This document shows positions 1 through 43,998 of a stretch of 64,000 nucleotides of DNA, piece by piece. The position numbers were made by a program, and so were the translations under genes. Origin of the DNA: Mytilus galloprovincialis. Lineage: Eukaryota > Mollusca > Bivalvia > Mytilida > Mytilidae. The notes beneath the pieces were generated by a model. It was not told where the DNA came from, ran no database searches, and saw nothing but the letters and a program-made list of their open reading frames with translations. Each line of letters opens with the position of its first letter. Within the stretch, counting starts at the first letter, position 1. The stretch lies in NCBI RefSeq assembly GCF_965363235.1, contig NC_134842.1:6413112-6477111 (forward strand), written 5' to 3'.

Positions 1-1125
1 TGTTTCATGCACCTGACCTGATTTGTCTTTGGAAACTGTGTCGTTATGAGATGCTAAATCTTTTTTATTATTATTGTCAATCAATGTTGACATTTGTTTA
101 ATATTTGTTTGTTCACTTAAGTCAGTTGCACTTCCACTTTGGGTTGTGTTATGATATTGTAATTATTGTATTTATTTATGTTGGCCTGATTTGTGTTGTG
201 TGGCCTGATAGTTATTTACAGAATAATCTTAGAACTGCGCAGTTTAGAAATCTCTGGAACAATTACAGAATGATTGGAACTTTCCAGAATGATCCTAATA
301 AAAGATGGGTTATATAAACTTCTACATTTTACTAGAAACTTCTGTTGTAACTTTCTAGGATGTTCCATTATAGACTGTTCTAGAATCTTCCATGAAAACT
401 ATATATATACAGACACTAAAGTTAAACGATCACTCTTGCACTTGGACTTAGACATCGATAGACATTAGCATTCACAGCATTTGGATTGACACTTTTATTC
501 TACAAACAACATCATACTGGATTGTGACCGTAATATTCAGATTGGATTCCGAAAGATATCCGGATACAGATAAAGATAAAAGATTGGACTCATATTTTGA
601 CCGTTAAGTTGACAGTAATATTTGTGTAATACTTCTTGTAAATTTGTGTATAATAAATATTGTTAAATTTTACTATTGATTTGTGTCTTTTGTTGGCTAC
701 AATTTAAAGGCGATTTCTGGCCGTAACAGTTGTGTTTATTTTACATGACCCAGATTCGTCTGTATTAGTTGCCATATAAATTATGTTAACCAGCTTAACA
801 AGGACTGGGAAATCTTTATCTACAAAAGTATCTTTATGATATCCTTGCACTTGCACTAAGCCTGTGTTTACAAATAGGGTGATTTTGTACAATAAAGAGT
901 CAACATCTGCTTTTGTTGATATTTCTACACAGATGGATTTATTTCCAGAATTCTTTGTAGACCAGTTTTCAGGGTCATCGAACCAACTCACAACATAATC
1001 AGACGATTTACCATAGTGTTCATAATACAATAGCGATAGACTTTTGATCCAAGTTGCTAGCTTTGGATGAGGAATACGAAATGCTATCATGTGGGCTGCC
1101 TCATCATACAAATGTGTATCACTTT
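1..1125 (-). pseudogene. N-terminal part of a LINE ORF1 (left-arm copy), split by a solo LTR
   Basis: Read on the minus strand, bases 1125-729 and 146-1 mirror 42077-42655, the start of ORF1 of the CR1/L2-like LINE on the right. The encoded segment begins with a KRSLTEES-like start, has a domain with HPKLATWIKSLSLLYYE and VQVQGYHKDTF, then a polar linker. I know of no named domain for it; its LINE identity rests on the right-hand copy, which runs on into a coiled coil and an SGNH-like domain. The copy is interrupted at 147-728 by an LTR insertion absent on the right. Left of base 1 the element presumably continues. One residue differs from the right copy across about 130 codons, so the two are recent duplicates. 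Confidence 0.7.
147..728. mobile_element. Solo LTR of an LTR retrotransposon (probably Gypsy/Ty3 type), fossil
   Basis: This 582 bp insert is present in the left arm and absent at the mirrored place in the right arm (near 42510), which shows the empty site. It begins TGTTATG and ends GTAACA, so the ends carry the TG...CA of LTRs within a 5 bp inverted repeat. It is flanked by a 4 bp duplication, GTTG, at 143-146 and 729-732. Inside are a TATA-rich promoter-like patch near 400 and an AATAAA near 650, in the order usual for U3-R-U5. No internal retrotransposon region is present, so it is most simply a solo LTR left by recombination. It is younger than the palindrome if the right arm shows the ancestral state. 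Confidence 0.78.
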
Positions 1126-2604
1126 CTTCAGTAAGAGAACGCTTGCCTTTGGGTCCTGATCGTTAATAAGTGTTATTACTACTTCATTTCATTAAATAAC
1201 TATATTACTTTGGATACAATCGTCAAATTCCGAAGCAATTCAGATTTTTACCGGCGCTCACTGGAGGCTGCCATTACAATTCAAGGGAGGTAAGATCCTT
1301 ATACAAGTCATCCCGTAGTTCTAACCTTATTGTTGTTTTACATTATGTCTTAATAACTTGCTATTATTTATCTCGCAGAATTACTAATTATTTCTTATTT
1401 GTGTGGTGGTGGATGTTTTCAATGTATTAGGCTTAACCTTTAAATCTGTTTAGCCTAACACTTATTGTGTTCACTTTATTTTGAAAACATTCCTACTAAT
1501 AGTAATCAAGACTTTTTTTCTGTTAACGTATAAATTTTCCAACACTATTGGTTTGCTATTCATCTTTTAGTGTATGCTTCCTGTGGATAATTACAATCGA
1601 GATGTTTTTCAGTTCAAAATTAAATTATATTGAAAGCTTTCAAGGACATCCGTCACTATTTAAAATCAAACAATTAGATGCTGACTGATGTTAAACTACC
1701 AATCCTTATGGTACATAAAAAAATGAGAAATTTGATAACATTCCTGCAAACCGAAAATGTTTCCTGTGTTAAGTATAGATTTTCTAACACTATGGGAATG
1801 ATGTTCATCTTTAAGTATACCCTTCCTGATGATACTTACAAATGAGATGATTGTTCCGTTGTAAATTGAAATAAAAACTTTAAAATAATGTGTCACTATC
1901 CCATAGACATACACAGCTTGCAGTCGCGTGTAGTAAGTTAAGTTCTGTACGAAATTGAAGTAGTAAGCTTAATTGTAATAAAATTTCTTAAAGCATAATT
2001 TTCAATAAAAGTTATAATTTTAGCTTATAATCTAGATCAAGAGTTGAGTTTTCATCATCTTATTATATCAAAGTTAAGAAGGCATATAAAACCCTTTTGA
2101 CAATGAACCAATGCATTAAAGTTTTTGTTCGGTAATAATTACATGTTTCACTTTCTGACACTAAAAATGTATATTGTTTATGAATTTCAATAAAGAACAC
2201 AGACTTCTCAACAACATTCGTGTCTCTACTTATTAGATGATCATAGACTTGTAATCAATGAGATATAGCTTTTGTTTTTATTTCAATTATGTCTAATCAA
2301 GTGATAGATTGATTACATATTATTGCCTAGGTACTTTCTTATTCTCCATTGACAGTTGTATAACCTGAAATTTCCATCTTTTAAAATAGCTGAACTAATT
2401 TTTCTTTTTTTTTTCTCAGAGGAAACCTCTCACACTGCAATACATTATATTCAAATATACCTGTTTATAATGAGTAAATATAAAACGTTATTAATATGAC
2501 AGAAAACATTTGCAAACTATGGAGAAAACTCATAGATTGAAAATCATCTGACAACGCCATGTATAAACAGTAAGTAGGTCACATTCGTGAAAAGGAACGG
2601 GTAT
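1126..2604. other. Non-coding left-arm DNA with copies of a roughly 200 bp repeat
   Basis: I see no gene here. Two degenerate copies of a repeat lie at about 1495-1640 and 1684-1905. Both read like the copies at 18345-19860, with phrases such as a TACCAATCCTTATGGTA motif and GATGTTCATCTTTAAGTATA. The mirrored DNA is at about 40650-42076. Confidence 0.6.
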
Positions 2605-3700
2605 TGTAGTTACGACATATGGAACATATCCGATATCATCTGTGAAACGGTTATTCCATAACGGTCAATAAAATCGTGTCCGTAAAATTTACGAAGGGAA
2701 GATTTCAACTTCACCATTCGGAACTCTTGGTTTAATAGCTTCCATGTGAGCATCAATCCTCGTTCAAGGACATCACGATAGGAAACACAAGTCCGGGAAT
2801 ATCGTATCAATTTGGAGATATGTTCTCCGTTTCTAGGCGCTGCTGGGATGTTACTATATAGAAAAGGAAAGTTCACAATTAAGAAGCTGAAATCATCTCT
2901 TTTGTCATGTAATGTTATCATTTTAATGATATCTTTTTAATGTTATCTTTTTAATATTATCATTTTAATATTATATTTAAGATTGTCGTAAAAGCGAGAT
3001 TTTTGACATGCCACGAAAACACGTTCAACCCACCATTTTTTTTCTAATAAATGTCCTGCACCAAGTTAGGAAAATGGCCATTGTTTTATTATAGTTCGTT
3101 TCCGTGTGTGTTACATTTTGATGTTATGTTTATGTTGTGTCGTAGTTATCTTCTAATATTTGATGCGTTTTCCTCAGTTTTAGTTTGTAACCCAGATTTG
3201 TTTTTTTTTTCTCAATCGATTTATGAATTTCAGCGGTATACTACTGTTGTCTTTATTTGTCGTAAAGTTTTGTTTTCAATCGACCCTCATTGTCATTTTC
3301 TAGATGTAAGTCAAGATATGAGGCAAAAGTAACTGTAACTGTAGTATCCCTTATCTCTACATGTAGTTCGATGGGATAGATTCGTTAAACATACTCACCC
3401 AATTTTGTATTATTTAGTGAGAGAACAGCATCTATATAGCGGAACGTAAAGTTAAAGGATATTGCTAAATTCTTATCATTTTTCCTAAGAAATTCCTGTC
3501 AGCCTCATAATAATAAAGAAACAAGTCGGCAAGAAGAGGGGCACAATTGGTTCCCATTAGAATTCCGACAATCTGTTGAAAAACGTAACAAATATGTTGT
3601 CAATCAAGAAATCAAGCATCTTGATAATGTCAGTTTCAGAGTATGTTTTGTTTGAATCTGAGTGGTTCTTTACAAAGGATGATGTATCTTTCCCCAAGAC
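2605..3700 (-). mobile_element. Penelope-like reverse transcriptase fossil with a nested repeat (left arm)
   Basis: On the minus strand, about 3700-3275 and 2921-2605 encode degraded parts of a reverse transcriptase with MGTNCAPLLADLFLYYYEAD and RYID, then FPFLYSNIPAAP and KLKSSLRKFYG near the end. I recall this pattern from molluscan Penelope-like retroelements; the family assignment is from memory. The two parts are separated by another dispersed repeat at about 2930-3270, which interrupts the frame at an LYDK/LHDK point. The whole nested block is mirrored at about 39540-40650, so the nesting predates the palindrome. The coding region is clearly broken and incomplete at its 5' side, and I see no GIY-YIG domain. 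Confidence 0.6.
2930..3270 (+). repeat. Dispersed mussel-type repeat nested in the Penelope-like fossil (left arm)
   Basis: This roughly 340 bp block contains a CAGTTTTAGTTTGTAACCC phrase and a TCAATCGATTTATGAATTTC phrase that I recall from many mussel loci. A near-duplicate of the target (ACGACAAA on one side, a TGACAAA variant on the other) brackets it, as expected of an insertion with target duplication. The mirrored copy is at about 39990-40325. Confidence 0.5.
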
Positions 3701-5165
3701 AAGATATTTGTATCTAAGTTCGCCATTATTTTAAATGTAACAAAGTTATGTCCATTCTTTCAATTTGATTTTTAGTTTGGAATGGGAAAACTTGTTTAAA
3801 GTGTAGAAATGTCAAATGTTGTAATACTATGATAATCGTAAGATGAGAGAGTCTTATTGTATGTACATCGTAAAGATCTTTAGATTTTTTTAGTATCCAC
3901 ATCTGATTTATGCCATCTTTGTAATAAGCAGTTTAACAATGACTTTGGAGTTATATAAGTTGAGCAACGTAATTGTCTTCAAATTTTCTTCATTATTTGA
4001 TAGCATATATTGACAATAATCGAAAAGTAATGAAATATTTTATAAAGAAATCAGTTGAAATTGTTTACACAGAACAGAGTAATCAATTATAAATCGATGG
4101 GACAAACATTCTTAAGTTTTTATTGGCTGTGAACCAACTCTCAGTAACTGCAAGTATTCTAGTATCGTTCATTTGTGTCTGTCGTTTTAATGCAAGTTGT
4201 TTTTGATAAACTTCGTAATATCTATAGACAAATAATTTAGACAAGCCACCGATGTTTTATATTTTGGTCTAATACAGTGCTGCTACACTACTCTCCAACA
4301 TTAGATGGATGATTCACAAACATGTTAAACCCTGCTAACTTCTGTATGTGGCTCTCTCAAGTCATGACACTTTTATTCTGTATTTGTCGTAAGTTCATTA
4401 CTGTAAAACCAGTCCAGAAAACATAGGAAATACCATAATATTATGGAATTTCATAAATATGGAAATATGAAAATATATACGTGTATAAAAGGCTCGTGTT
4501 TCATTGTTTACGTTTCTTCATTGACTCAATTTATGGTTTTAGAGATAAAAATGCATTATGAAGATATTTTTAATGATCATGTGCTTACATGTTTCATACG
4601 CAGAACATATGTTCATTTCATGTGTTTGGTGACTAATCTGCAAGTCCTATAGGTTAAATTGTACCAATACATGTAGTAAAAAAATAACCTTTTATGTTTG
4701 AACCATTAGTTAATATTATCAAATAAGAATTAAGGGATTTCATCGTTTTTTTTTCATTCGAAAAATATATTTTGATATTTTGATATTTATCGCCTTGAAA
4801 ATACATACATAAATATACTTTAACGTGATTAGCAGAATTATGCTTGAGTTATATTGTCCTGATTTTTTTTATGAATCAGTGATATTGCACATCTTAATGT
4901 CGAAAATAGGTTATCCTGTCGTTTTGTAAAATATAACAAACATATATGATAATTTTGTACCAAGACAATTTCAAGTTTTTGTTTTGTTTGCAATTTATCT
5001 TGAAAAAATCCTTACCTGACATACTTGCAACAAAACATTGAGAAATGAATAACCATTACATGTAGTCATTGAAACAATTTCTCTTTAATGATGTCAGTGA
5101 AAAGGAATTCACAAAAAGACCGACCTCCATTGCAAATTAAAGACGGAAAGTCGAAACAATCTTAC
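3701..5165. other. Non-coding left-arm DNA, nothing recognised
   Basis: AT-rich sequence with several short open frames that are broken or unsupported. I see no domain, RNA gene or transposon end. The mirrored DNA is 38088-39540. Confidence 0.5.
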
Positions 5166-5400
5166 ATTATCAATCTTCTTACGGATGTACTCCTCTGAGG
5201 AGCCAAACATTTCTAGAAATAATCTTTGTGTTCTTAACCTGAAGTTTGGGTTTATACGACAGTAAAATAATAATTGGTGCAACAAAAAAATTATGTGCTG
5301 GTGAAATTCATTTTCTTCAATATTGATGATTTTCCAATTTCTAACCAATTTTATCCATGTTGGGCTATTATCATGCAAAATATCACATTTTTCAATCAGT
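5166..5400 (-). CDS. Putative internal coding exon, unidentified (left arm)
   Basis: A 235 nt block on the minus strand is preceded by an acceptor (AATTTGAACACAG) and followed by a donor (AAT then GTAAGA). It is open throughout and would encode about 78 residues with phrases such as WIKLVRNWKIINIEENEF, FLLHQLLFYCRINPNFR and RLFLEMFGSSEEYI. The mirrored block at 37853-38087 keeps the same splice signals and frame and differs at about one residue. The mix of hydrophobic and charged residues looks more like real protein than chance translation of AT-rich DNA. I do not recognise the family, and I found no neighbouring exon of the same gene. A second GTAAGA a little upstream could also serve as donor. 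Confidence 0.35.
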
Positions 5401-7370
5401 CTGTGTTCAAATTATCAATAAAGATGACTTGAACCAATCTAAATAGGTTTAACTTTAAATTATAGGTACATGTAGGTGATAATATAAAAAAGTTAAATAC
5501 AGAGTTGTTGCTTTTTGGTATCAAATGTATCATGCTGACAACTTTGTAAATATGGACGTTTTCTTTTATTTTAGAAACATAGCATATTATTTTAACTTCT
5601 GTGTTATAACTGATTGAAAAAAATACATATCTAAGAAATATGACAAGAAATAAAATGATCTGGTATGAACATATTTCTGGTAAAAGCATTTTCGCATCCC
5701 TTATCCATTTTCTTCACATTTAAGTTACCGAGACTGACTTGATTGGTAAAAGAATTTGAAAATATTCTTACTTAAAAAACTACTTAATATCGTAAATACA
5801 CATTTTTTTCACGAAGTCAAGTTTGAATATAATATTTAAAAAATATGATAAGAAGATATAAGACATAACAAATAATACAAATTCAATGATAAGCTTTTTT
5901 CATGCAATAGAAATTAAGTGCATCAATCTACATGTATCTGAGGATTTGGTTACACAATTTTTTTTTAAGTGTTTACCTAATTTACAAGTGAATTGCTATT
6001 GACAATTTTCAACTAATAAATAAACATATAAGAACAGTAAACATTTATGGAACAATAACCAACAAATCTAACAATACAATGTACAACATAAAAACGCCTT
6101 TTCATTACATCCGAATCAAATTTCAATATATCTAAAATACAAGATTGAGAAATTGTTTATCTTGACATTTCAGGAGAAATTATACATACAGCATGTAGAG
6201 TATGATGTTATAACTTATTGCAAAAACAAACCAATCACAGGTAAGCTAATCATATCGAAAAATAGTACATTAATCAGATCTACATGTATACACAAGGTTC
6301 AAACAACTCAGAAATCAAATCAAATCAAGTCAGTGAGCATTTCGAATTTCATCTTCGCAACTCTATGGATTGCTTTTCGTAGCTTGTTTTTTCCGATTTG
6401 TAAGCAAAAAAAAAAAGAAAATGAATGAATCAATCTATATTGATGTGTATTTATATTATGTATTATTTTTAATTGTATTTTACTAACTTTTATATAATAT
6501 TTTATTATATATTCTTGAAAGACATATGATAAATAATATAGAGGAAATCTTAGCCCAATGATGTAAGCTAAGGAAATTGTTAAACAGCATTTAGCACAAT
6601 AAAGATGATTTGATTGTTTCAGAAAAATATTAATGAGTTGTTATTGTTATTCTTAAGTTCAATTTTGTAAAAAAATATATCTAACAAAATTGCGGAATTT
6701 CCAGACAAATTAAAAAACGAAAATGTCCATAATAGACAGCAATACAAATGCTGTCAAACAATCGTGACAATTAAAACACAGCTGCCATATTCCTTGCTTT
6801 GTATAAGAATTACCCGAACAATCTGGCTTTATTACTAGCTCAATCTAAGCTAAGCGAGACACCTATAATTGAAATATGAAATGTTTTACCTTGTCTTACA
6901 AACGAAAATATGACATTTTTGCATTTGGTGACTAATTTTTTAAAGTCTTCTCCTTTTAATTTCAATAATTTCTTTAAAGAAATTGAAATACCACTTCAAT
7001 TCTATATTTTCTATCACCAGAAAGGCTCTTACAGAAAACGTTAAAATGCAAAAATAAATGTTCGACACACATTAGAAGTCTTGAACTAAATTCCAAAATC
7101 CATTTTAGGTCATGCTAATTTGTGGCAATCTTACTAATTTATAATAATCCTCCATTTATTATATGAAATACATAACAGTTTGATATCAATCAAATTTCAC
7201 CAACCCATTTCTATTACGATAATGCACATAAAGTCTAACAGTCTACTTAGTGATATTTATCTAGTGCTATAACATTAACATTCATAAGAATGACAAAATA
7301 TACATGTGGTTTTGTTGTAGTAAGTGTAATGATACTTGAGTTGTGTAATGTCTAAACATGACTTAGTTAT
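5401..7370. other. Non-coding left-arm DNA
   Basis: No supported gene. The open stretch at 6153-6428 is low in complexity and has no domain. At about 6860-6890 this arm shows the simple (empty) version of a site that holds a hairpin-bearing insert in the right arm (35754-36330). Confidence 0.5.
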
Positions 7371-8886
7371 TAACGAAACAACCGGATAAGTTTATTAACA
7401 ATTGATCAGTAATTAAAAGGCAAGTCTAGCTTTAATCTCATTACTGCATGTGTTAGGTACACGAAATAAAAGGTTATAGTTTTGATACAGTTTAATTTCA
7501 GAAAAAGGGAATTCAAAAGAATAAAGATATCACTCCTTCAATCTGTCTTCTTTATTATATATGAGAAATAAGGGTTATTTATAGAAAAACTCATCGAAGA
7601 ATTCACATAGAGATGAGTGACCGAACATCACATTATTTCACGAATGCGCGTAGTTGAATATTTTTCGAAATTTTAATTCTTTAGTTAGTTATTCGTTTTC
7701 TTACATTGGCAAATGACCTCTTTTTTTATATTAAATTAACGTAGAAAATGTCAGGATCTATATATTGTTCTACGCATTCTTAATTTGTTTTGATCCGACG
7801 TAATTGGCGTCTTGACAACGCATACTGTTGTATGACGTCAGAGGAGTGAAATAACCACGTTTATTTTATATGAGAAATTATTGGTTTTTATTTCCCTGGG
7901 AAATCAATGTAATTCCTTGGAAGTAATTTTTCCATTGGGTGTTATGGGAATTAGACACCACACTTATTGATTGATTATTTCTTGTGTCAATGTTCTGTGA
8001 CTAATGTGAATTTGTTAAATAAGAACACGAAGTTATATTTAGAGTAGCAAAGATATATATCATCGGAAAACACATTCGCAGCAAAAAAACAGTTTATCCC
8101 GGCTTTTGTTAGGGTTTGTGTAGCTCAGTTTTTAGTTTTCAATGTTATCTTGAGAAGACGTTATTGAATTTATCATTTTTCTGTTTACATTTGTCATTTG
8201 GATGTCAACATCATTTTTACTTTCAAGGTTGGATTTTCATTTGTTTATTTGAATTCTATGTCGGTCTTCAACCTATTTTTTGTAAAATTTGTGCATTAAT
8301 GTCTCCACGAAAGTTGATAACAAGGTCTTCACGTCATATTTGAAATACAGCATTTACCTTTGAGTTTGAGTTAAAGACGAATTAGATGAGGTGTTGATCT
8401 GATGTCCATTCATTGTTTTAAAGACGCAATTGGCATCTGTTAGACGGTAATTGACCACCAACTTGTAAATAGAAACACAAAAGCAAGGCCGTTAAATCCT
8501 TTATAAAACAATGCATTCGTTTAACCAGTTTAACCAGGTTGAAGTCAAATCTAAAGAGGAGACTTATTTGAAAACATTTGCTGCAAGTGATGTACATCAA
8601 CCACACACGAATTATAAAGTAATATAACTGATTAAGCAGATGATCAATTGGGCTTGTCCATTGTCAGCATTTAAGTAATGTGTTCCTACAAACGCAACAA
8701 TAATAATGGCAATACAACAAATATCGCTGTAATCTCGTAAAATGAGATATCGTTCTGCTAGCGGACAAGAGGATCTGTCATACCATAGAACAATACATTG
8801 AAGGTACTGAAAATTTCTAATTATTCAACAGTATTTGAATTCTTACTGTATCATGGAGTAATAATTCTGTGTTTTACAGTAAATAG
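7371..8886 (+). repeat. Tandem duplication in the left arm, copy 1
   Basis: This 1516 bp unit starts TAACGAAACAACCGG and ends ACAGTAAATAG. It is repeated directly as copy 2 (8888-16909, once the LINE and its target duplication are removed). The two copies differ by only a few substitutions and short indels, for example an extra TATAT near 7556 in copy 1. The right arm has the unit once, at about 33790-35275, so the duplication arose in the left arm after the palindrome formed or was lost on the right. I see no gene in it. Confidence 0.92.
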
Positions 8887-9957
8887 CTAACGAAACAACC
8901 GGATAAGTTTATTAACAATTGATCAGTAATTAAAAGGCAAGTCTAGCTTTAATCTCATTACTACATGTGTTAGGTACACGAAATAAAAGGTTAAAGTTTT
9001 GATACAGTTTAATTTCAGAAAAAGGGAATTCAAAAGAATAAAGATATCACTCCTTCAATCTGTCTTCTTTATTATGAGAAATAAGGGTTATTTATAGAAA
9101 AACTCATCGAAGAATTCACATAGAGATGAGTGACCGAACATCACATTATTTCACGAATGCGCGTAGTTGAATATTTTTCGAAATTTTAATTCTTTAGTTA
9201 GTTATTCGTTTTCTTACATTGGCAAATGACCTCTTTTTTTATATTAAATTAACGTAGAAAATGTCAGGATCTATATATTGTTCTACGCATTCTTAATTTG
9301 TTTTGATCCGACGTAATTGGCGTCTTGACAACGCATACTGTTGTATGACGTCAGAGGAGTGAAATAACCACGTTTATTTTACATGAGAAATTATCGGTTT
9401 TTATTTCCCTGGGAAATCAATGTAATTCCTTGGAAGTAATTTTGCCATTGGGTGTTATGGGAATTAGACACCACACTTATTGATTGATTATTTCTTGTGT
9501 CAATGTTCTGTGACTAATGTGAATTTGTTAAATAAGAAAACGAAGTTATATTTAGAGTAGCAAAGATATATATCATCGGAAAACACATTCGCAGCAAAAA
9601 AAAAAACAGTTTATCCCGGCTTTTGTTAGGGTTTGTGTAGCTCAGTTTTTAGTTTTCAATGTTATCTTGAGAAGACGTTATTGAATTTATCATTTTTCTG
9701 TTTACATTTGTCATTTGGATGTCAACATCATTTTTACTTTCAAGGTTGGATTTTCATTTGTTTATTTGAATTCTATGTCGGTCTTCAACCTATTTTTTGT
9801 AAAATTTGTGCATTAATGTCTCCACGAAAGTTGATAACAAGGTCTTCACGTCATATTTGAAATACGGCATTTACCTTTGAGTTTGAGTTAAAGACGAATT
9901 AGATGAGGTGTTGATCTGATGTCCATTCATTTTTTTTTTTTTTTTTTTTTTTTTTTT

Positions 9958-10712
9958 CCAAGTAAATCTCTTTTATTATATATCTGCTGTTTTGACAATC
10001 TACTCGGATTACAGCGTTAGCCCGAGTATCCCTGTATTTAGTTACTGAATTTCCAGGGAAAAGTTCAGTAAAGTATACTTAAGTATTAAAGTGTTAATTA
10101 TATATATCACATATACATTCTTTTAAATACAGTGTATACATATTAAGAATAAAATTTCATAGTATAAATCACGTGTTTACGGAACATCATTTGCCTTCCG
10201 AATTTGTATTCATCGTCCCGTGTTTACATCTTTGACCCAGTTATTTGTACTTGACCTTTTGTGCTGGATTAGTTACAAATCATTGTCCGAAAGCTAGTGC
10301 AAAAGGAAGCACATGTTTGTTGTGAAAATAAATTTTTGGATTAGATAAAACTTGTTTGGTAAGTGTTATTTACTATTCGTTAACAATTTTGTCTTAGAAA
10401 CAAAACAAATGTATCTAGAGTGAAAAAGATTAAATGTTTCTGGAAATATGATAGAAAGAATAAGGTTTTTAACATGTGATTTGATACCAACAAAGTGAAC
10501 ATACACACAATTACTTGATGATATATGGTGCAAAACAAATCAGTGTTGAATTATAATCATTTTAGTTTTATATATTATATTAAATAAAGTGTCTTGTTTG
10601 GTTTGTTTATACATACAAAAAATGAAAAACCAACAACTGCAACATACATGTACACAATATAAAGTCTAGCATAGCTATTAATTTTCACACCACACAATTG
10701 TATACATTTCAA
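9958..10712 (-). other. 3' UTR of the L1/Tx1-like LINE
   Basis: About 750 bp of AT-rich non-coding sequence lies between the ORF2 stop and the poly(A) tail. The polyadenylation signal AATAAA lies at 9972-9977 on the minus strand. No other feature was seen. Confidence 0.7.
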
Positions 10713-16282: not shown

Positions 16283-16301
16283 ACATGTTTATTTCTCCTT
16301 T

Positions 16302-16434
16302 TTAACTTTGTGTTTTGGGTTTGGTTGTTTGATTCTCTCTATCGAAAAGGTCCGTTGTAGGAGTTGTTGCAGACCTTTTTGAGACTTTATTTCCAGGAGT
16401 GGTTGCACTGGTTTGTTTCTCAACTAGAAATTGT
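16302..16434 (-). pseudogene. C-terminal tail of LINE ORF1 (5'-truncated)
   Basis: The first bases of the LINE, read on the minus strand from the target duplication, encode about 44 residues (LVEKQTSATTPGNKVSKRS and on to KPKTQS) and then a stop at 16302. It is a Ser/Thr/Lys-rich tail that fits the end of an ORF1 protein, and the element is truncated here. The frame also runs upstream into the target-site DNA, but that part is chance. Confidence 0.55.
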
Positions 16435-28918: not shown

Positions 28919-29250
28919 ATGTATAGGAGGAGGGTTGAGATCTCATAAACATGTTTAACCCCGCCGCAATTGTGCGCCTGTCCCAAGTCAGGAGCCTCTG
29001 GCCTTTGTTAGTCTTGTATGATTTTTAATTTTAGTTCCTTGTGTATAATTCGGAGTTTAGTATGACGTCCGTTATCACTGTACTAGTATACATTTTTTTA
29101 AGGGGCCAGTGAATGACGCTTATGGGTTCGGGAGTTTCTTACTACATTGAAGACCGATTGGTGGCCTTCGGCTGTTGTCTGCTCTATGGTCGGGTTGTTG
29201 TCGCTTTGACACATTCCCCATTTCCTTTCTCAATTTTATTAGTTTAAGTT
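28443..29250 (-). repeat. Dispersed repeat (GACAACAACCCGACCATAGA family), right-arm copy
   Basis: This is the mirrored partner of 22895-23475, enlarged by the 238 bp tandem duplication at its low-coordinate end. Confidence 0.75.
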
Positions 29251-29449
29251 AAATCATCCGTATCACTAGAGTTATGGAGGGAGTTATAATCTTAGTTTCT
29301 TTATCAACTCTTTATATATAAAACAGGAATTTAAGAACGACATGCTATAGACATTTGGATAATAACAGAACCGATCAGGTCCCGATGACAGAACGTGATG
29401 ATAACACTTATAAATTGATGATCAGTATTGGTCGTTTGTTGGTGTGGTT

Positions 29450-29700
29450 CATAAGTGTTTCTCGTTTCTCGTTTTTTATAAGAATAACCATTGGGTTTCC
29501 CGTTTAAAGGGGTTTACACTAGTCACTATCGTGGCCCTTTATAGCGTTCTGTTCAGTGTGAGCCACGTTTCTGTATTGAAGATCGTACTTTGACCTATAA
29601 TGGATTTTTTTTCCAAATTGTGACTTTGATGGAGTATTGTCTAATTGGCACTTATACCACATCTTCTTATATCTATGTATGCTATGGATCACTTTCAAAA
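29450..29700 (-). repeat. SINE-like dispersed repeat, right-arm copy
   Basis: This is the mirrored partner of 22475-22720, with the same phrases in reverse complement. The segment next to it (about 29410-29470) differs from the left arm by a short replacement. Confidence 0.75.
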
Positions 29701-30349
29701 TTTCCATTCACCGGAAACATTCAATGTAATTAAAACGAAATCCAACGATAAGTATTCACGAAGGTTACATATGATATAGTTTAATCACTTTGTTCATAAT
29801 TTCTTAACTTATCAACATATAATAATAATGTGAGTATATATAGCACTGAATACTCGACTGATGAAACCATTAAAGACTTAAAGCCCACCAGTAGTAGTAT
29901 CGACCAAGGTAAACATTTTCGTGGAAAATCAGAAGTAACTTTAAACCAGCTGTGTTGATATAATACACATATAGTCACTTTAACAAATAATCCCTATCAA
30001 ATATTTGAATATAGACAGCTTTTGCAGGGGACACCATGTCAACATAATGAATTGTCATCAAAACAACGTTTACGTTGTGTTTCCAAGACTAATTAAAATT
30101 TCAGAAATATTATTATTGTGTATGAATGATGTTTTGTATTCGCAAATCATACCAATGAATATTTAACGTGAATCCTGCATTTCCTTTATACTGCTTTGTG
30201 TCATTTTCATAATTATGGAAATGAATCTCTCTTTTTCTAAAAAGAAAATCTCTAAAATGACAAGTCATGTAGTCAACACAACAACACTTGTCTTACAATT
30301 ACTAAAACATATTAGATGGTCGGTTGTAAAAGATGGACGAAAGATACCA

Positions 30350-30570
30350 GAGGGACCGTCAAACTCATCAATCGAAAATAAACTGACAACGCCATGCTAA
30401 AAATGAAAAAGACAAACAGACATTGTCAAATAAAAGTACACATGACACAACATAGAAAACTTACGAATAAACAACACGAACCCCACCAAAAACTAGAGGT
30501 GATCGCAGGAGCTCCGGAAGGGTAAGCAGATCCTGCTCCACATGTGGCATCCGTCGTGTTGCTTATCTGA
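30350..30570 (-). repeat. Dispersed repeat (ACACGACGG...GTCCCTCTGGTATC family), right-arm copy
   Basis: This is the mirrored partner of 20398-20640. It has a few extra bases (GACATTGTCAAATAAAAGTA) relative to the left copy. Confidence 0.75.
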
Positions 30571-33500: not shown

Positions 33501-35753
33501 ACAATCAGAGCTTACAGTATTCCTTGTTAAAATAAAATAAAAACCTATATTTAAATATACAAATTACAATATACCCTTTAAAAGACAATGGAAGGTGGAG
33601 TACATCTATAAATTGTCTGGCATTTTACTACTATTCAAGGATTTAATGATTAATAATTGTGCTTCATATCTCAAGTGGCTAACTTATAATTGTGACACAA
33701 TTCTTGATAACTTACAGATTATTATGACACTGAGTTTACATTTAAAAAACACCACATGCATTTGTATTTCATATACCTATTTTACTATTTACTGTAAAAC
33801 ACAGAATTATTACTCCATGATACAGTAAGAATTCAAATACTGTTGAATAATTAGAAATTTTCAGTACCTTCAATGTATTGTTCTATGGTATGACAGATCC
33901 TCTTGTCCGCTAGCAGAACGATATCTCATTTGACGAGATTACAGCGATATTTGTTGTATTGCCATTATTATTGTTGGAGGAACACATTACTTAAATGCTG
34001 ACAATGGACAGGTCCAATTGATCATCTGCTTAATCCGTTATATTACTTTATAATTCGTGTGTGGTTGATGTGCATCACTTGCAGCAAATGTTTCCAAATA
34101 AGTCTCCTCTTTAGATTTGACTTCAACCTGGTTAAACTGGTTAAACGAATGCATTGTTTTAACGGCCTTGCTTTTGTATTTTCTATTTGGTGGTCAATTA
34201 CCGTCTAACAGATGCCAATTGCGTCTTTAAAACAATGAATGGACATCAGATCAACACCTCATCTAATTCGTCTTTAACTCAAACTCAAAGGTAAATGCCG
34301 TATTTCAAATATGACGTGAAGACCTTGTTATCAATTTTCGTGGAGACATTAATGCACAAATTTTACAAAAAATACGTTGAAAACCGACATAGAATTCAAA
34401 TACACAAATGAACATCCAACCTTGAAAGTAAAAATGATGTTGACATCCAAATGACAAATGTAAACAGAAAAATGATAAATTCAATAACGTCTTCTCAAGA
34501 TAACATTGACAACTAAAAACTGAGCTACACAAACCCTAACAAAAGCCGGGATAAACTGTTTTTTTTGCTGCGAATGTGTTTTCCGATGATATATATCTTT
34601 GCTACTCTAAATATAACTTCGTGTTCTTATTTAACAAATTCACATTAGTCACAGACCATTGACACAAGAAATAATCAATCAATAAGTGTGGTGTCTAATT
34701 CCCATTACACCCAATGGCAAAATTGCTTCCAAGGAATTACATTGATTTCCCAGGGAAATAAAAAACGATAAATTCTCATGTAAAATAAACGTGGTTATTT
34801 AACTCCTCTGACGTCATAAAACAGTATGCGTTGTCAAGACGCCAATTACGTTGGATCAAAACAAATTAAGAATGCGTAGAACAATATATAGATCCTGACA
34901 TTTTCTATGTTAATTTAATATCAAAAAGAGGTCATTTGCCAATGTAAGAAAAAGAATAACTAACTAAAGAATTAAAATTTCGAAAAATATTCAACTACGC
35001 GCATTCGTGAAATAATGTGATGTTCGGTCACTCATCTCTATGTGAATTCTTCGATGAGTTTGTCTATAAATAACCCTTATTTCTCATAATAAAGAAGACA
35101 GATTGAAGGAGTGATATCTTTATTCTTTTGAATTCCCTTTTTCTGAAATTAAACTGTATCAAAACTATAACCTTTTATTTCGTGTACCTAACACATGTAG
35201 TAATGAGATTAAAGCTAGACTTGCCTTTTAATTACTGATCAATTGTTAATAAACTTATCCGGTTGTTTCATTAGTAACTAGGTCAAGTTTAGACATTACA
35301 CAACTCAAGTATCATTACACTTACTACAACAAAACCACATGTATATTTTGTCATTCTTATTAATGTTAATGTTATAGCACTAGATAAATATCACTAAGTA
35401 GACTGTTAGACTTTATGTGAATTATCGTAATAGAAATGGGTTGGTGAAATTTGATTGATATCAAACTGTTATGTATTTCATATAATAAATGGAGAATTAT
35501 TATAAATTAGTAAGATTGCCACAAATTAGCGTGACCTTAAATGGATATTGGAATTTAGTTCAAGAGACTTCTAATGTGTGTCGGATATTTATTTTTGCAT
35601 TTTCACGTTTTCTGTAAGAGCCTTTCTGGTGATAGAAAATATAGAATTGAAGTGGTATTTTAATTTTTTAAAGAAATTATTGAAATTAAAAGGAGAATTC
35701 TTTAAAAAATTAGTCATCAAATGCAAGAATGTCATATTTTCTTTTGTGAGACT
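30571..35753. other. Right-arm DNA mirroring 6880-8886 and 16910-20395
   Basis: It holds the mirrored roughly 200 bp repeat copies (about 31100-32560), the conserved but unsupported open stretch at 32729-33079, and the single, unduplicated version of the 1.5 kb unit (about 33790-35275). It also contains a poly(A) run at about 31080-31100. No gene, LINE or tandem duplication is present here. Confidence 0.6.
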
Positions 35754-36330
35754 ATTAGTTACATAGTGTGCTAGTGACCTAATACGGTATATATGGGGTC
35801 AGTAAATTCCATATGGGGTGAGAGCGAAACTCGAATCCCCATATGGAATTTACTGACCCCATATATACCGTATTACGTCACTAGCACACTATGTAACGAA
35901 TTTATCTTACTGACTATCTTAACTTGTGAAATTAAGAATCGTGATTCTCAAAAGGAGCAAGTCTTCAATACTGTTAGCACTAAGAAAATACTTCCATTGA
36001 TCCTACAAAAACAGATGCCAACAATAACGACTTGTAAGGTTTAAATGTGTTTTATGAATTTATTTCAATCTTAATCATCAATTTCTTCGTCTGTTGGAAC
36101 TTTTAAGATTTTTTCTCAGTACCGTTTTGTTTTTTTATAAAGGGACATAACACCATTACTAACCGTGTATGAAATAAGTCCCGCTCCCTTCTTACCTAAT
36201 AAGGAATATAAAGGGACGTAACTCCACTACTAACCGTGTATGAGATAAGCCCCGCCTCCCTACTAACCTAATATCAAATATACACGGTTTGCACGCGGAC
36301 GCTTTTAACAAATCATATTCCTGGAAATGT
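35754..36330. mobile_element. Right-arm-specific insert with a near-perfect 58 bp hairpin
   Basis: The left arm lacks this about 580 bp (empty site near 6865). It opens with an inverted repeat of 58 bp arms (35761-35818 and 35837-35894) that match at all but one position around an 18 nt loop. Each arm runs from the ACATAGTGTGCTAGTGAC side to CATATGGGG. Downstream, a segment with AACCGTGTATGARATAAG and GGGACRTAAC occurs twice, about 61 bp apart (36142-36270). I could not fix the insert's right end or its target duplication. It looks like a fold-back or MITE-type element without coding capacity. Confidence 0.7.
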
Positions 36331-37852
36331 ATAGGAGGTAAGATAAAAGTTAATACATTTCATATTCAATTATAGTTGTCTCGAGCTCGAGCTCGCTTAG
36401 CTTAATTTGAGCTAGTAATAAAGCCAGATTTTTCGGGTAATTCTTGTACAAAGCAAGGAATATGGCAGCTGTATTTCAATTGTCACTATTATTTGACAGC
36501 ATTTGTTGTTGCTGTCTATTATGGGCATTTTCGTTTTTTAATTTGTCTCGAAATTCCGCAATTTTGTTAGATATATATTTTTTGCAAAATAAAACTTAAG
36601 AATAACAATAACAACTCATTTTTATTTTTCTGAAATAATCAAATCATCTTTATTGTGCTAGATGCTGTTTAACAATTTCCTTAGCTAACATCATTGGGCT
36701 AAGATTCCCTCTATATTATTTATCATATGTCCATCAAGAATATATAATAAAATATTATATAAAACTTAGTAAAATACAATTAAAAATAATACATAATATA
36801 AATACACATCAATATAGATTGATTCATTCATTTTCTTTTTTTTTTTTGCTTACAAATCGGAAAAAACAAGCTACGAAAAGCAATCCATAGAGTTGCGAAG
36901 ATTAAATTCGAAATGCTCACTGACTTGATTTGATTTGATTTCTGAGTTGTTTGAACCTTGTGTATACATGTAGATCTGATTAATGTACTATTTTTCGATA
37001 TGATTAGCTTACCTGTGATTGGTTTGTTTTTGCAATAAGTTATAACATCATACTCTACATGCTGTATGTATAATTTCTCTTGAAATATCAAGATAAACAA
37101 TTTCTCAATCTTGTATTTTAGATATATTGAAATTTGATTCAGATGTAATGAAAAGGCGTTTCTATGTTGTACATTTTATTGTTAGATTTGTTGGTTATTG
37201 TTCCATAAATGTTTACTGTTCTTATATGTTTATTTATTAGTTGAAAATTGTCAATAGCAATTCACTTGTAAATTATGTATACACTTAAAAAAAATTGTGT
37301 AACCAAATCCTCAGATACATGTAGATTGATGCACTTAATTTCTATTGCATAAAAAAGGTTATCATTGAATTTGTATTATTTGTTATGTCTTATATCTTCT
37401 TATCATATTTTTTAAATATTATATTCAAACTTGACTTCGTGAAAAAAATGTGTGTTTACGATATTAAGTAGTTTTTTAAGTAAGAATATTTTCAAATTCT
37501 TTTACCAATCAAGTCAGTCTCGGTAACTTAAATGTGAAGAAAATGGATAAGGGATGCAAGAAATGCTTTTACCAGAAATATGTTCATACCAGATCATTTT
37601 ATTTCTTGTTATATTTCTTAGATATGTATTTTTTTCAATCAGTTATAACACAGAAGTTAAAATAATATGCTATGTTTCTAAAATAAAAGAAAACGTCCAT
37701 ATTTACAAAGTTGTCAGCATGATAAATTTGATACCAAAAAGCAACAACTCTGTATTTAACTTTTTTTATATTATCACCTACATGTACCTATAATTTAAAG
37801 TTAAACCTATTTAGATTGGTTCAAGTCATCTTTATTGATAATTTGATCACAG
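36331..37852. other. Non-coding right-arm DNA
   Basis: This is the mirror of 5401-6860. A run of GAGCTC units (TCTCGAGCTCGAGCTCGC, about 36380-36397) replaces a simpler GTCTCGC in the left arm. No gene is recognised. Confidence 0.5.
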
Positions 37853-38087
37853 ACTGATTGAAAAATGTGATATTTTGCATGATAATAGTCCAACATGGAT
37901 AAAATTGGTTAGAAATTGGAAAATCATCAATATTGAAGAAAATGAATTTCACCAGCACATAATTTTTTTGTTGCACCAATTATTATTTTACTGTCGTATA
38001 AACCCAAACTTCAGGTTAAGAACACAAAGATTATTTCTAGAAATGTTTGGCTCCTCAGAGGAGTACATCCGTAAGACGATTGATAAT
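37853..38087 (+). CDS. Putative internal coding exon, unidentified (right arm)
   Basis: This is the mirrored copy of 5166-5400: 235 nt, acceptor ATTTGATCACAG, donor GTAAGA at 38088, frame open from the first full codon at 37854 to a phase-0 end. It differs from the left copy mainly by K to T in the IRKKIDN phrase (here IRKTIDN). Both copies keep the splice sites and the frame. The family is unknown to me, and no other exon of the gene was found within either arm. Confidence 0.35.
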
Positions 38088-39539
38088 GTAAGATTGTTTC
38101 GACTTTCCGTCTTTAATTTGCAATGGAGGTCGGTCTTTTTGTGAATTCCTTTTCACTGACATCATTAAAGAGAAATTGTTTCAATGACTACATGTAATGG
38201 TTATTCATTTCTCAATGTTTTGTTGCAAGTATGTCAGGTAAGGATTTTTTCAAGATAAATTGCAAACAAAACAAAAACTTGAAATTGTCTTGGTACAAAA
38301 TTATCATATATGTTTGTTATATTTTACAAAACGACAGGATAACCTATTTTCGACATTAAGATGTGCAATATCACTGATTCATAAAAAAAATCAAGACAAT
38401 ATAACTCAAGCATAATTCTGCTAATCACGTTAAAGTATATTTATGTATGTATTTTCAAGGCGATAAATATTAAAATATCAAAATATATTTTTCGAATGAA
38501 AAAAAAAACGATGAAATCCCTTAATTCTTATTTGATAATATTAACTAATGGTTCAAACATAAAAGGTTATTTTTTTACTACATGTATTGGTACAATTTAA
38601 CCTATAGGACCAGCAGATTAGTCACCAAACACATGAAATGAACGTATGTTCTGCGTATGAAACATGTAAGCACATGATCAATAAAAATATCTTCATAATG
38701 CATTTTTATCTCTAAAACCATAAATTGAGTCAATGAAGAAACGTAAACAATGAAACATGAGCCTTTTATACACGTATATATTTTCATATTTCCATATTTA
38801 TGAAATTCCATAATATTATGGTATTTCCTATGTTTACAGTAATGAACTTACGACAAATACAGAATAAAAGTGTCATGACTTGAGAGAGCCACATACAGAA
38901 GTTAGCAGGGTTTAACATGTTTGTGAATCATCCATCTAATGTTGGAGAGTAGTGTAGCAGCACTGTATTAGACCAAAATATAAAACATCGGTGGCTTGTC
39001 TAAATTATTTGTCTATAGATATTACGAAGTTTATCAAAAACAACTTGCATTAAAACGACAGACACAAATGAACGATACTAGAATACTTGCAGTTACTGAG
39101 AGTTGGTTCACAGCCAATAAAAACTTAAGAATGTTTGTCCAATCGATTTATAATTGATTACTCTGTTCTGTGTAAACAATTTCAACTGATTTCTTTATAA
39201 AATATTTCATTACTTTTCGATTATTGTCAATATATGCTATCAAATAATGAAGAAAATTTAAAGACAATTACGTTGCTCAACTTATATAACTCCAAAGTCA
39301 TTGTTAAACTGCTTATTACAAAGATGGCATAAATCAGATGTGGATACTAAAAAAATCTAAAGATCTTTACGATGTACATACAATAAGACTCTCTCATCTT
39401 GTGATTATTATAGTATTACAACATTTGACATTTCTACACTTTAAACAAGTTTTCCCATTCCAAACTAAAAATCAAATTGAAAGAATGGATATAACTTTGT
39501 TACATTTAAAATAATGGCGACCTTAGATACAAATATCTT
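38088..39539. other. Non-coding right-arm DNA
   Basis: This is the mirror of 3701-5165. I see nothing beyond short unsupported open stretches. Confidence 0.5.
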
Positions 39540-40650
39540 GTCTTGGGGAAAGATACATCATCCTTTGTAAAGAACCACTCATATTCAAACAAAACATTCT
39601 CTGAAGCTGACATTATCAAGATGCTTGATTTCTTGATTGACAACATATTTGTTACGTTTTTCAACAGATTGTCGGAATTCTAATGGGAACCAATTGTGCC
39701 CCTCTTCTTGCCGACTTGTTTCTTTATTATTATGAGGCTGACAGGAATTTCTTAGCAAAAATGATAAGAATTTAGCAATATCCTTTAACTTTACGTTCCG
39801 CTATATAGATGCTGTTCTCTCACTAAATAATACAAAATTGGGTGAGTATGTTTAACGAATCTATCCCATCGAACTACATGTAGAGATAAGGGATACTACA
39901 GTTACAGTTAATTTTGCCTCATATCTTGACTTACATCTAGAAAATGACAATGAGGGTCGGTTGAAAACAAAACTTTACGACAAATAAAGGCAACAGTAGT
40001 ATACCGCTGAAATTCATAAATCGATTGAGAAAAAAAACAAATCTGGGTTACAAACTAAAACTGAGGAAAACGCATCAAATATTAGAAGATAACTACGACA
40101 CAACATAAACATAACATCAAAATGTAACACACACGGAAACGAACTATAATAAAACAATGGCCATTTTCTTAACTTGGTGCAGGACATTTATTAGAAAAAA
40201 AAATGGTGGGTTGAACGTGGTTCTGTGGCATGTCAAAAATCTCGCTTTTACGACAATCTTAAATATAATATTAAAATGATAATATTAAAAAAATGACATT
40301 AAAAAGATATCATTAAAATGATAACATTACATGACAAAAGAGATGATTTCAGCTTCTGAATTGTGAACTTTCCTTTTCTATATAGTAACATCCCAGCAGC
40401 GCCTGGAAACGGAGAACATATCTCCAAATTGATACGATATTCCCGGACTTGTGTTTTCTATCGTGATGTCCTTGAACGAGGATTGATGCTCACATGGAAG
40501 CTATTAAACCAAGAGTTCCGAATGGTGAAGTTGAAATCTTCCCTTCGTAAATTTTACGGACACGATTTTATTGACCGTTATGGAATAACCGTTTCACAGA
40601 TGATATCGGATATGTTCCATATGTCGTAACTACAATACCCGTTCCTTTTC
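39540..40650 (+). mobile_element. Penelope-like reverse transcriptase fossil with a nested repeat (right arm)
   Basis: This is the mirror of 2605-3700. About 39540-39985 encodes remnants such as ADIIKMLDFLIDNIFVTF, MGTNCAPLLADLF and FRYID. About 40326-40629 encodes FPFLYSNIPAAPGNGEHIS, LKSSLRKFYGHDFIDRYG and an end at ISDMFHMS. A dispersed repeat (about 39990-40325) sits between them. The element is broken in several places, with the same nesting as on the left, so it decayed before the palindrome formed. Confidence 0.6.
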
Positions 40651-42076
40651 ACGAATGTGACCTACTTACTGTTCAGACATGGCGTTGTCAGATGATTTTT
40701 AATCTATGAGTTTTCTCCATAGTTTGCAAATGTTTTCTGTCATATTAATAACGTTTTATATTTACTCATTATAAACAGGTATATTTGAATATAATGTATT
40801 GCAGTGTGAGAGGTTTCCTCTGAGAAAAAAAAAGAAAAATTAGTTCAGCTATTTTAAAAGATGGAAATTTCAGGTTATACAACTGTCAATGGAGAATAAG
40901 AAAGTACCTAGGCCAATAATATGTAATCAATCTATCACTTGATTAGACATAATTGAAATAAAAACAAAAGCTGTATCTCATTGATTACAAGTCTATGATC
41001 ATCTAATAAGTAGAGACACGAATGTTGTTGAGAAGTCTGTGTTCTTTATTGAAATTCATAAACAATATACATTTTTAGTGTCAGAAAGTGAAACATGTAA
41101 TTATTACCGAACAAAAACTTTAATGCATTGGTTCATTGTCAAAAGGGTTTTATATGCCTTCTTAACTTTGATATAATAAGATGATGAAAAATCAACTCTT
41201 GATCTAGATTATAAGCTAAAATTATAACTTTTATTGAAAATTATGCTTTAAGGAATTTTATTACAATTAAGCTTACCACTTCAATTTCGTACAGAACTTA
41301 ACTTACTACACGCGACTGCAAGCTGTGTATGTCTATGGGATAGGGACACATTATTTTAAAGTTTTTATTTCAATTTACAACGGAACAATCATCTCATTTG
41401 TAAGTATCATCAGGAAGGGTATACTTAAAGATGAACATCATTCCCATAGTGTTAGAAAATCTATACTTAACACAGGAAACATTTTCGGTTTGCAGGAATG
41501 TTATCAAATTTCTCATTTTTTTATGTACCATAAGGATTGGTAGTTTAACATCAGTCAGCATCTAATTGTTTGATTTTAAATAGTGACGGATGTCCTTGAA
41601 AGCTTTCAATATAATTTAATTTTGAACTGAAAAACATCTCGATTGTAATTATCCACAGGAAGCATACACTAAAAGATGAATAGCAAACCAATAGTGTTGG
41701 AAAATTTATACGTTAACAGAAAAAAAGTCTTGATTACTATTAGTAGGAATGTTTTCAAAATAAAGTGAACACAATAAGTGTTAGGCTAAACAGATTTAGA
41801 GGTTAAGCCTAATACATTGAAAACATCCACCACCACACAAATTAGAAATAATTAGTAATTCTGCGAGATAAATAATAGCAAGTTATTAAGACATAATGTA
41901 AAACAACAATAAGGTTAGAACTACGGGATGACTTGTATAAGGATCTTACCTCCCTTGAATTGTAATGGCAGCCTCCAGTGAGCGCCGGTAAAAATCTGAA
42001 TTGCTTCGGAATTTGACGATTGTATCCAAAGTAATATAGTTATTTAATGAAATGAAGTAGTAATAACACTTATTAA
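40651..42076. other. Non-coding right-arm DNA before the LINE ORF1
   Basis: This is the mirror of 1126-2600, with two copies of the roughly 200 bp repeat (about 41330-41720). Part of 41900-42076 may be the 5' UTR of the LINE that follows; its start cannot be placed. Confidence 0.5.
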
Positions 42077-43998
42077 CGATCAGGACCCAAAGGCAAGCGT
42101 TCTCTTACTGAAGAAAGTGATACACATTTGTACGATGAGGCAGCACACATGATAGCATTTCGTATTCCTCATCCAAAGCTAGCAACTTGGATCAAAAGTC
42201 TATCGCTATTGTATTATGAACACTGTGGTAAATCGTCTGATTATGTTGTGAGTTGGTTCGATGACCCTGAAAACTGGTCTACAAAGAATTCTGGAAATAA
42301 ATCCATCTGTGTAGAAATATCAACAAAAGCAGATGTTGACTCTTTATTGTACAAAATCACCCTATTTGTAAACACAGGCTTAGTGCAAGTGCAAGGATAT
42401 CATAAAGATACTTTTGTAGATAAAGATTTCCCAGTCCTTGTTAAGCTGGTTAACATAATTTATATGGCAACTAATACAGACGAATCTGGGTCATGTAAAA
42501 TAAACACAACCCAAAGTGGAAGTGCAACTGACTTAAGTGAACAAACAAATATTAAACAAATGTCAACATTGATTGACAATAATAATAAAAAAGATTTAGC
42601 ATCTCATAACGACAGGACAGTTTCCAAAGACAATCAGGTCAGGTGCATGAAACAAACGATATAAGTCAGTCAGATATGAATGTTGCACATTTTCAACCCG
42701 ACCAGATGTTTAGTAGGATGGAGGCCAGATTCACATTGGCGCTTGGCAAAATTTTTATGCAGCAATCTGATTTATTCAATTCGAAATTTCAATTGATGGA
42801 GCATTATTACAAACAATCTATAGAAACAAACAACAATTTTAAAATGTTGCAAGATACTATCACTACCATACTTAAACCTACAAGTGATAATGACAAACTC
42901 GCTGCTCGTATAGTCTCTCTTGAAAAAGAAAATATCATCTTAAAGTCATCTGTTAATGAATTTAAAAACACATCTGCCATTAATATTGAATGTTGGAAAT
43001 CTAAAATTGAAACTCAAAAGTCCCAAATGGAGCTAAAATCTCAGGACACAAGAATTAAAGACCTACACAGTGGCATTTCTGATCTACAAACTAAGCTAAA
43101 CAATAAGATCAGTAAAATTAAGAGATGGCTTCAGCTTATAATTCAGTATCTGAAAATTTGAAACATAAAGAAGATGAAGTACTTAGTCTAAAATTACATT
43201 TGAGTCAAGACAATACAAACGATTTTCAGGAAGTGAAACTAAAACATCCTAAAACAAGAAATACAAAACATGTTGTTCTAATTGGTACACCCAACATTAA
43301 GGGGATTGACCCAAATAAACTTTCGTCCAAATACTCTGCAGAAAAACATGAGGCATTCACATTAGAGCAAACTGATCATGTTATATAGGAGCTAGAAGTT
43401 ACACCGGATATTTTAGTTTTGCATTCTTTATCAAATGCTGTTCGATCTACCCCAAATGAAAAGAGCATTGAATATCTACATACAATCATTGATAGTGCTA
43501 AAGAGAAATTTAATGATACCAAAATAGTAATTTCTCTCCAAACTCCAAGACCCGACGAGGAGTCCTTAAATAATAAGGTACAAATTTTGAGTTTAATGGC
43601 AAAGGAAGATCTCAGGAATGAACCAAATGTAGAGATATGCGACAACAGTAATATGGCATTTAAAGGGAGTGCTCTCCAAAAATTTTTGGATCCCAAAGAC
43701 AATTATCATCTTTCGTTAAATGGCACTAAAATGTTGGCATCTAACATTAGAGACACAATAGACCGGATTCTTGGCCTCCCCCCGAGAACTCTCATGAAAC
43801 GTAACGTTAACAAATACAATTATACACCGCCTAGAGGCCAACGTGACAATACAAATGATTTTTTTGCCAGATGATGATTCACAACAGTATATGTACTACA
43901 GAGGCCGAGGCCAGAGATATAGAGGCGGAAGAGGGAACAATCATCAGTTTCGAGGCAATCGCGGTTATCACCGCAGGGGATATTACAATTTAAAGGCA
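42077..43998 (+). pseudogene. LINE ORF1: coiled coil, SGNH-hydrolase-like domain, RGG tail
   Basis: Domain order: an N-terminal region (42077-42540; HPKLATWIKSLSLLYYE, VQVQGYHKDTF), a polar linker, a coiled coil (about 42676-43130), an SGNH-like domain (about 43255-43790) and an Arg/Gly-rich tail (43860-43985; RGRGQRYRGGRG). The SGNH region has VVLIGTPNIKGI, where Pro stands in the place of the usual nucleophile Ser, and DNYHLSLNGTKM, the Asp-x-x-His end block. Such ORF1 proteins bind element RNA; the hydrolase part may act on lipids or be structural. Breaks: frameshifts near 42650, 43140 and 43850 and a stop at 43386-43388. The RGG tail would add nucleic-acid binding. Confidence 0.8.

Follow-up and report, generated by a model that had tools for sequence, protein, structure and literature searches.

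The 64,000-nucleotide stretch of Mytilus galloprovincialis DNA analyzed here (the window; NCBI RefSeq assembly GCF_965363235.1, contig NC_134842.1, hereafter C5, positions C5:6413112-6477111) contains the centre of a long palindrome, P2, and a gene, gene A, predicted to encode a secreted-type cysteine-rich peptide. Both belong to an array of ~0.4 Mb (C5 6.07-6.49 Mb) in which inverted units of ~55 kb alternate and form three related palindromes, P0, P1, and P2. The differences among these palindromes suggest that an ancestral palindrome was copied whole, lost parts of its centre in some copies, and was partially overwritten thereafter.

A preliminary description, made from the letters of the window alone, had seen in it a single imperfect palindrome with a spacer of ~0.7 kb. 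Self-blastn of the window bears out both the large inverted duplication and the spacer: the P2 centre occupies 25597-26311 (715 bp, junction bases included) and is flanked by collinear inverted matches at 92.8-98.1% identity, which pair 26312-28671 with 25596-23228 (98.1%), 28680-30215 with 23468-21952 (94.5%), 30210-33449 with 20746-17454 (94.9%), 33458-34248 with 17235-16432 (92.8%), 33785-35752 with 8886-6893 (95.7%), and 36347-42510 with 6892-729 (98.0%), all at E = 0.0, and 42503-42654 with 150-1 (97.4%, E = 2e-67). Position 42655, once taken as the end, merely mirrors the first base of the window, and the arms continue both ways. With neighbouring sequence added they can be traced for ~55 kb on the left and ~51 kb on the right, and align to the limits given in Table 1 over 36,508 sites, insertions excluded. 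Indeed, the self dot-plot with added flanking sequence, which the preliminary description had proposed, reveals inverted units beyond both edges of the window. The inverted duplication therefore stands, but an isolated 42.6-kb palindrome is ruled out by an array that continues in both directions.

For this comparison, C5:6200001-6413111 and C5:6477112-6495000 were joined to the window, giving 295,000 contiguous bases without N. P0, centred near C5 6121.87k, was read in short stretches, and the remainder of C5:6.07-6.20 Mb was mapped from search matches. Genome searches covered 1,384,861,812 bases in 331 contigs and score the best candidates only, so that their counts are lower bounds. The Myticin family, known from mussels, has at least 17 matches in this genome and none in 14 control genomes, which indicates a Mytilus-type bivalve and, with the genome size, rules out a prokaryotic or viral origin. 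The borders of the unit copies c0-c5 (Table 1) were chosen by us for comparison; c2 and c3 form P1, and c4 and c5 form P2. A mid-arm kilobase (window 38000-39000) has at least six near-full copies in the genome, all of them inside the array (C5 6100876(-), 6135870(+), 6307707(-), 6337522(+), 6417351(-), and 6451111(+)), while the other 35 matches listed are shorter than 500 bp and 67-90% alike. Neighbouring units are linked by a second kind of palindrome centre (B-type), the non-dispersed part of which lies at C5 near 6267.6k and 6376.8k.

Insertions specific to one arm help to show how the three palindromes are related. The junction of a long interspersed nuclear element (LINE) with its flank (query window 16300-16560) recurs at C5 6110929, 6317797, and 6429411, which are the left arms of P0, P1, and P2. 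A query spanning the insertion site is split by ~6 kb in all three left arms, and finds the empty site joined in all three right arms (C5 6132588, 6333630, and 6447241; 88-100% identity). The P2 left arm has a further joined site at 6421409, within the first of two tandemly duplicated copies. Likewise, a long terminal repeat (LTR)-like insertion occurs with both flanks at C5 6413191, 6303545, and 6096724—the three left arms—among 40 matches listed, and P1 and P2 have its site empty and joined in their right arms. Conversely, P1 and P2 have a 595-bp fold-back insertion, with its flanks, in their right arms and not in their left arms. At P0 it does not appear among the matches listed, in agreement with the shorter spacing there between the LINE site and the mid-arm kilobase (3,275 bp, versus 3,863 in P2 and 3,889 in P1). 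Because insertions are common to same-side arms across palindromes, left and right arms were most likely already distinct before the palindromes multiplied. From the LINE and LTR-like insertion common to all three left arms, we infer whole copying of one ancestral palindrome whose arms already differed.

The three centres differ. P0 is nearly symmetric through its centre (6117317-6121346 against 6126416-6122388, 99.23%), and its arms hold the spacer sequence of the window on both sides, together with a further stretch, X. In P1, X and the spacer are kept on the right side, and the two are contiguous in P0 and P1 alike; homology in the P1 left arm is lost at ~6320229, next to an element whose inverted ends measure 238 bp. 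The P2 left arm tracks P0 as far as window 25596; after four further bases, a gap-free match to the right side of P0 begins at 25601. Three of these four bases fit the right flank of P0 if one base is skipped, leaving 1-4 bases of filler, and no short inverted homology is evident by eye at the junction. In all, 5,011 bp of P0 (C5:6119006-6124016) have no counterpart in P2. The P2 spacer has the appearance of an arm remnant from one side only, and the simplest account of the three centres would be a P0-like ancestor, with P0 taken as the ancestral state, and two independent central losses. Cruciform extrusion at P2 is probably unlikely, given the 715-bp spacer and the diverged arms.

Sequence divergence adds a second layer to this record. 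From greedy pairwise chains, with blocks below 150 bp left out, substitutions per aligned site amount to 0.55% between c2 and c4 and 0.67% between c1 and c3, to 1.24% for both c2-c3 and c3-c4, and to 2.04%, 2.12%, and 2.27% for c2-c5, c3-c5, and c4-c5, the last being P2's own arms; c5, the outermost copy, has diverged furthest. That c2-c4 and c1-c3 are closer than c2-c3 and c4-c5 supports copying of dimers. Over 3 kb mid-arm, the P0 left arm differs by 0.37% from the left arm of P1 and 1.06% from that of P2, versus 2.14% and 1.77% from the respective right arms; in 3 kb of the P0 right arm, divergence is 0.53% from the right arm of P1 and 0.77% from that of P2, versus 1.03% and 0.93% from the respective left arms.

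Along P2, divergence between the arms is as uneven as the preliminary description had suggested: 0.24% in the first 1.25 kb, then 2.74, 5.62, 0.90, and 2.75%, with 9.84% at the outer tip, the 0.90% block corresponding to window ~36.8-48.6 kb. Around the LINE site, the P1 arms differ by 2.09% and 4.56%; farther out, by 1.00%. Segmentation of c3 against c5 (250-bp bins, those with fewer than 100 aligned bases dropped) yields 3.39% (n=6,763), 0.70% (n=15,979), 2.74% (n=14,402), and 9.07% (n=717), and four rates lower the Bayesian information criterion from 7776, with one rate, to 7445. The 0.70% segment is a tract of ~16 kb with approximate borders, its left end near the 595-bp insertion and its right end near gene A, beside an alignment break. 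As a low-divergence block set between more diverged stretches, it may be explained by conversion or a (double) exchange. Of the uneven gene conversion raised in the preliminary description, a conversion-like tract is indeed present, but the arms are not kept alike, as each side retains its own insertions.

Table 1 Features of the window and unit copies of the array (window positions, unless given as C5)
Feature	Position	Strand	Description
P2 left arm (unit copy c4)	1..25596		runs on leftward past the window edge to ~C5:6383.9k
P2 central junction bases	25597..25600		gap-free match to neither P0 flank; 1-4 bases filler
P2 spacer	25601..26311		sequence also in both P0 arms and P1 right side
P2 right arm (unit copy c5)	26312..64000		outermost, most diverged copy; extends to ~C5:6490.6k
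LINE	9937..16431	-	endonuclease and reverse transcriptase frames; poly-T on + strand at left end; target-site duplication
LTR-like insertion, 578 bp	151..728		both flanks present in three left arms
Fold-back insertion, 595 bp, like a miniature inverted-repeat transposable element	35752..36347		right arms of P1 and P2, with flanks
Conversion-like tract, ~16 kb	35550..51540		closer to P1 right arm than the stretches alongside
Gene A	50734..51480	-	248-aa secreted-type proprotein, KR site, 10-cysteine C-terminal peptide
Unit c0, partial	C5 6213.5-6229k		dot plot
Unit c1	C5 6242.5-6269.4k	+	dot plot
Unit c2	C5 6269.4-6325.4k	-	dot plot
Unit c3	C5 6325.3-6378.3k	+	dot plot
Unit c4	C5 6378.3-6438.7k	-	dot plot
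Unit c5	C5 6439.4-6491.5k	+	dot plot
Dispersed repeat, ~139 bp	25460..25598		inner end of P2 left arm; mirror 26319-26448; many further genome copies
238-bp tandem duplication	28442..28909		P2 right arm only; single copy in left arm
1.5-kb tandem duplication, P2 left arm	first copy 7371..8886; second 8888-9936 and 16432-16909		absent from P1; second copy interrupted by LINE
Non-LTR element of unit	42077..47211	+	pieces of an endonuclease-like and a reverse transcriptase sequence, in different frames; crosses the window-edge mirror

Gene A reads by eye as a secreted proprotein, with a signal-type start and a long propeptide that precedes the KR site and the cysteine-rich end. A search of the genome with its protein lists 23 matches. 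Eight lie in the array at 98-100% identity and another eight, likewise in the array, at 68-72% (gene B); a single match of 61% lies on C7, and six are short N-terminal pieces. The match on C7, another chromosome-scale contig, is a diverged relative (C7:59356972-59357732) in which the N-terminal frame is broken. In all eight copies of gene A the frame is open from an inner ATG, the one reported stop lying upstream of it, and only 10 of 747 sites vary among them. Gene B, a ~70% paralogue within the array unit, has a frame broken near its start in five of eight places (C5:6262340, 6277270, 6371364, 6384571, and 6489466; open at 6070847, 6181701, and 6241696).

No known protein family could be assigned to gene A: searches gave no Pfam match at E<=0.1, a best NCBIfam value of 0.12, and PDB matches no better than 0.34 (single protein) and 0.68 (profile), none of them usable. 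Single-sequence AlphaFold2 prediction returned a mean pLDDT (predicted local distance difference test) of 40, and in a prokaryotic genome collection 85 stretches fit a peptide pattern, none of them confirmed as a relative. Gene A resembles the Mytilus CRP-I peptides, which according to their description (PMC10138031) also combine a signal-type start, a propeptide, a dibasic site, and a cysteine-rich mature peptide, the mature part evolving faster. CRP-I peptides are defined by a six-cysteine C-C-CC-C-C array, however, whereas the C-terminal peptide of gene A has ten cysteines. The direction of change is the same in the gene A family: across six pairs among A, B1, B2, and C7, compared by ratios of nonsynonymous to synonymous rates (dN/dS) with no significance test, values are 0.31-0.75 for the propeptide and 0.65-1.24 for the mature peptide, the mature part being higher in 6/6 pairs.

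Whether the peptide gene matters to the array is where the most serious competing view arises. The array may have persisted neutrally or been driven by its repeats, expanding through unequal exchange, with the peptide gene as a passenger; this is compatible with the structural history, and we consider it a genuine contender, if short of probable. Judged by eye, the frames of at least 160 aa in one unit copy are retroelement-like, genes A and B apart, the frame of gene B is broken in five of eight places, and the recent variants of gene A show no excess of silent changes. The eight open frames of gene A argue otherwise, as do the lower dN/dS of the propeptide and the agreement with the direction reported for CRP-I peptides (PMC10138031), bearing in mind that these are six pairs with no significance test. 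Open frames at C5:6354123-6354899 and C5:6363199-6364206, within the unit, look like Penelope-type reverse transcriptases.

A 104-bp unit recurs in three head-to-tail copies, 95% alike, at window 59866-60168, and scans for tRNA genes and Rfam families gave no match. Elsewhere in the genome, copies of the ~139-bp repeat found at the inner arm ends stand in short series ~365 bp apart, at C10:69219828-69224337 and C13:4701056-4701925.

Taken together, these observations suggest the following history. A ~55-kb unit with a gene for a secreted-type cysteine-rich peptide would have undergone inverted duplication into a nearly symmetric ancestral palindrome, the left arm of which then gained the LINE and the LTR-like element. 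The whole palindrome would next have been copied, giving at least three. The P2 centre would afterwards have been cut by an asymmetric deletion of ~5 kb, with 715 bp of one arm remaining as the spacer, and the P1 centre would have become asymmetric as well. Later, conversion or exchange would have overwritten stretches of the arms and spread near-identical open copies of gene A, with more divergence persisting in the DNA next to arm-specific insertions. Selection for the dosage of the peptide gene would be the likeliest reason for the survival of the array, and a role for the array in secreted-peptide dosage would be a reasonable supposition. The assembled structure, the insertions specific to each side, the central junction, the mosaic of identities, and the open frames are seen directly, whereas the order of events, the way of copying, conversion as the process, and selection on dosage are inferred. 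We put the probability of this full history at roughly 70%.

Several points weigh against it. The P0 arms are only 0.30% apart over 998 common aligned sites, so the sides are not strictly separate there and clustering by side is imperfect. The right arm of P0 matches one flank of the LTR-like site only (6139402), and the empty site is not intact there. P0 itself could have re-formed as a palindrome and so need not be ancestral, and the length of the P2 spacer is close to that of fold-back loops. Among the ten variable sites of gene A, seven are nonsynonymous, and purifying selection on the recent copies is therefore not seen. Finally, part of the array (P1 versus P2, for example) may be haplotypic duplication that inflates the assembled copy number, because pairs at 0.55-0.67% fall below the heterozygosity reported for mussels, which averages 1.73% in one source (PMC7653742) and is estimated at 3.27% in another (PMC11183127).

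The same numbers could be carried further, to an assembly artefact, a false palindrome made by head-to-head joining of the two haplotypes of a single locus or of chimeric fold-back reads. Such heterozygosity is high and hemizygous insertions are common in mussels (PMC7653742, PMC11183127), the arms in the window differ by 2.27% plus insertions, as alleles might, c2 and c4 are only 0.55% apart, and palindromic chimeras are described in amplified DNA libraries (PMC6218980). Yet three palindromes in one contig exceed what two alleles can give, the LINE is present in 3/3 left arms and its empty site in 3/3 right arms, 295 kb are free of N, and the three centres differ, which makes an artefact unlikely, though it may have inflated the copy number (as for P1 versus P2). 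Three palindromes with side-specific insertions likewise speak against haplotypic duplication for the palindrome itself and, because a side-specific LINE in all three cannot come from two alleles of a simple locus, the palindrome most likely exists in the genome. About as improbable is a separate fold-back of a broken end for each palindrome, with the 715-bp P2 spacer as the original loop: the spacer is near the 766-70,466 bp given for human inverted duplications (PMC3907307) and a dispersed repeat lies inverted at the inner arm ends, but the three left arms, with two same-site insertions, apparently share a single left-arm ancestor, both P0 arms contain the spacer sequence, and X directly adjoins the spacer in P0 as in P1.

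Long palindromes are unstable, and their survival in the germline has been studied mostly on sex chromosomes. Three related palindromes with three different centres in one array make the proposed copying, central cutting, and partial overwriting readable, with side-specific insertions helping to order the events and a ~16-kb conversion-like tract that holds an open gene. The array also draws attention to a family of secreted-type mussel peptides that has yet to be studied. A bolder and doubtful possibility is that the array acts as a germline palindrome amplifier, in which a symmetric palindrome would be copied whole, independent asymmetric losses at the centres would stabilise the copies, and exchange tracts bounded by arm-specific insertions would repeatedly re-spread one effector-peptide gene as the rest of the arms drifts. 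If so, the copy number of the peptide gene would vary strongly between individual mussels.

Among the open-licence papers listed by searches on palindromes and inverted or segmental duplications in mussels, bivalves, and invertebrates, we found no report of this array. The ampliconic palindromes of mammalian Y chromosomes share with it very long inverted repeats, a small spacer, multicopy open genes, and uneven identity, and the arms (~51-55 kb) and 715-bp spacer of P2 are of this kind. Identity between Y palindrome arms is above 99.9% (PMC3723533), whereas the P2 arms differ by 2.27% overall, by 0.24-9.84% in segments, and by arm-specific insertions; unlike those of the Y chromosome, moreover, the mussel palindromes appear themselves to have been copied in series. 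P2 also has features in common with fold-back inverted duplications that carry a disomic spacer, which spans from below 1 kb to many kb, and repeats near the junction (PMC3907307). The spacer of P2, however, also occurs in both P0 arms and in P1. Another comparison is with the center-break revision of palindromes (Cunningham et al. 2003), in which an asymmetric deletion reportedly removes the symmetric centre and leaves a spacer. The 5,011 bp of P0 without P2 counterpart are what such a deletion would leave if P0 is ancestral, although the process in cultured cells differs from what in P2 would be an evolutionary trace of about 5 kb in a genome array. Fish antifreeze protein gene arrays (see also PMC13032017 and PMC7737890) likewise amplify a gene for a secreted protein and are hard to assemble and phase, but in the mussel the repeat unit is a palindrome with separately evolving arms. 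What distinguishes this array from known palindromic amplicons is that the arms are not kept identical, that whole palindromes appear to have been multiplied, and that their centres differ as if lost independently.

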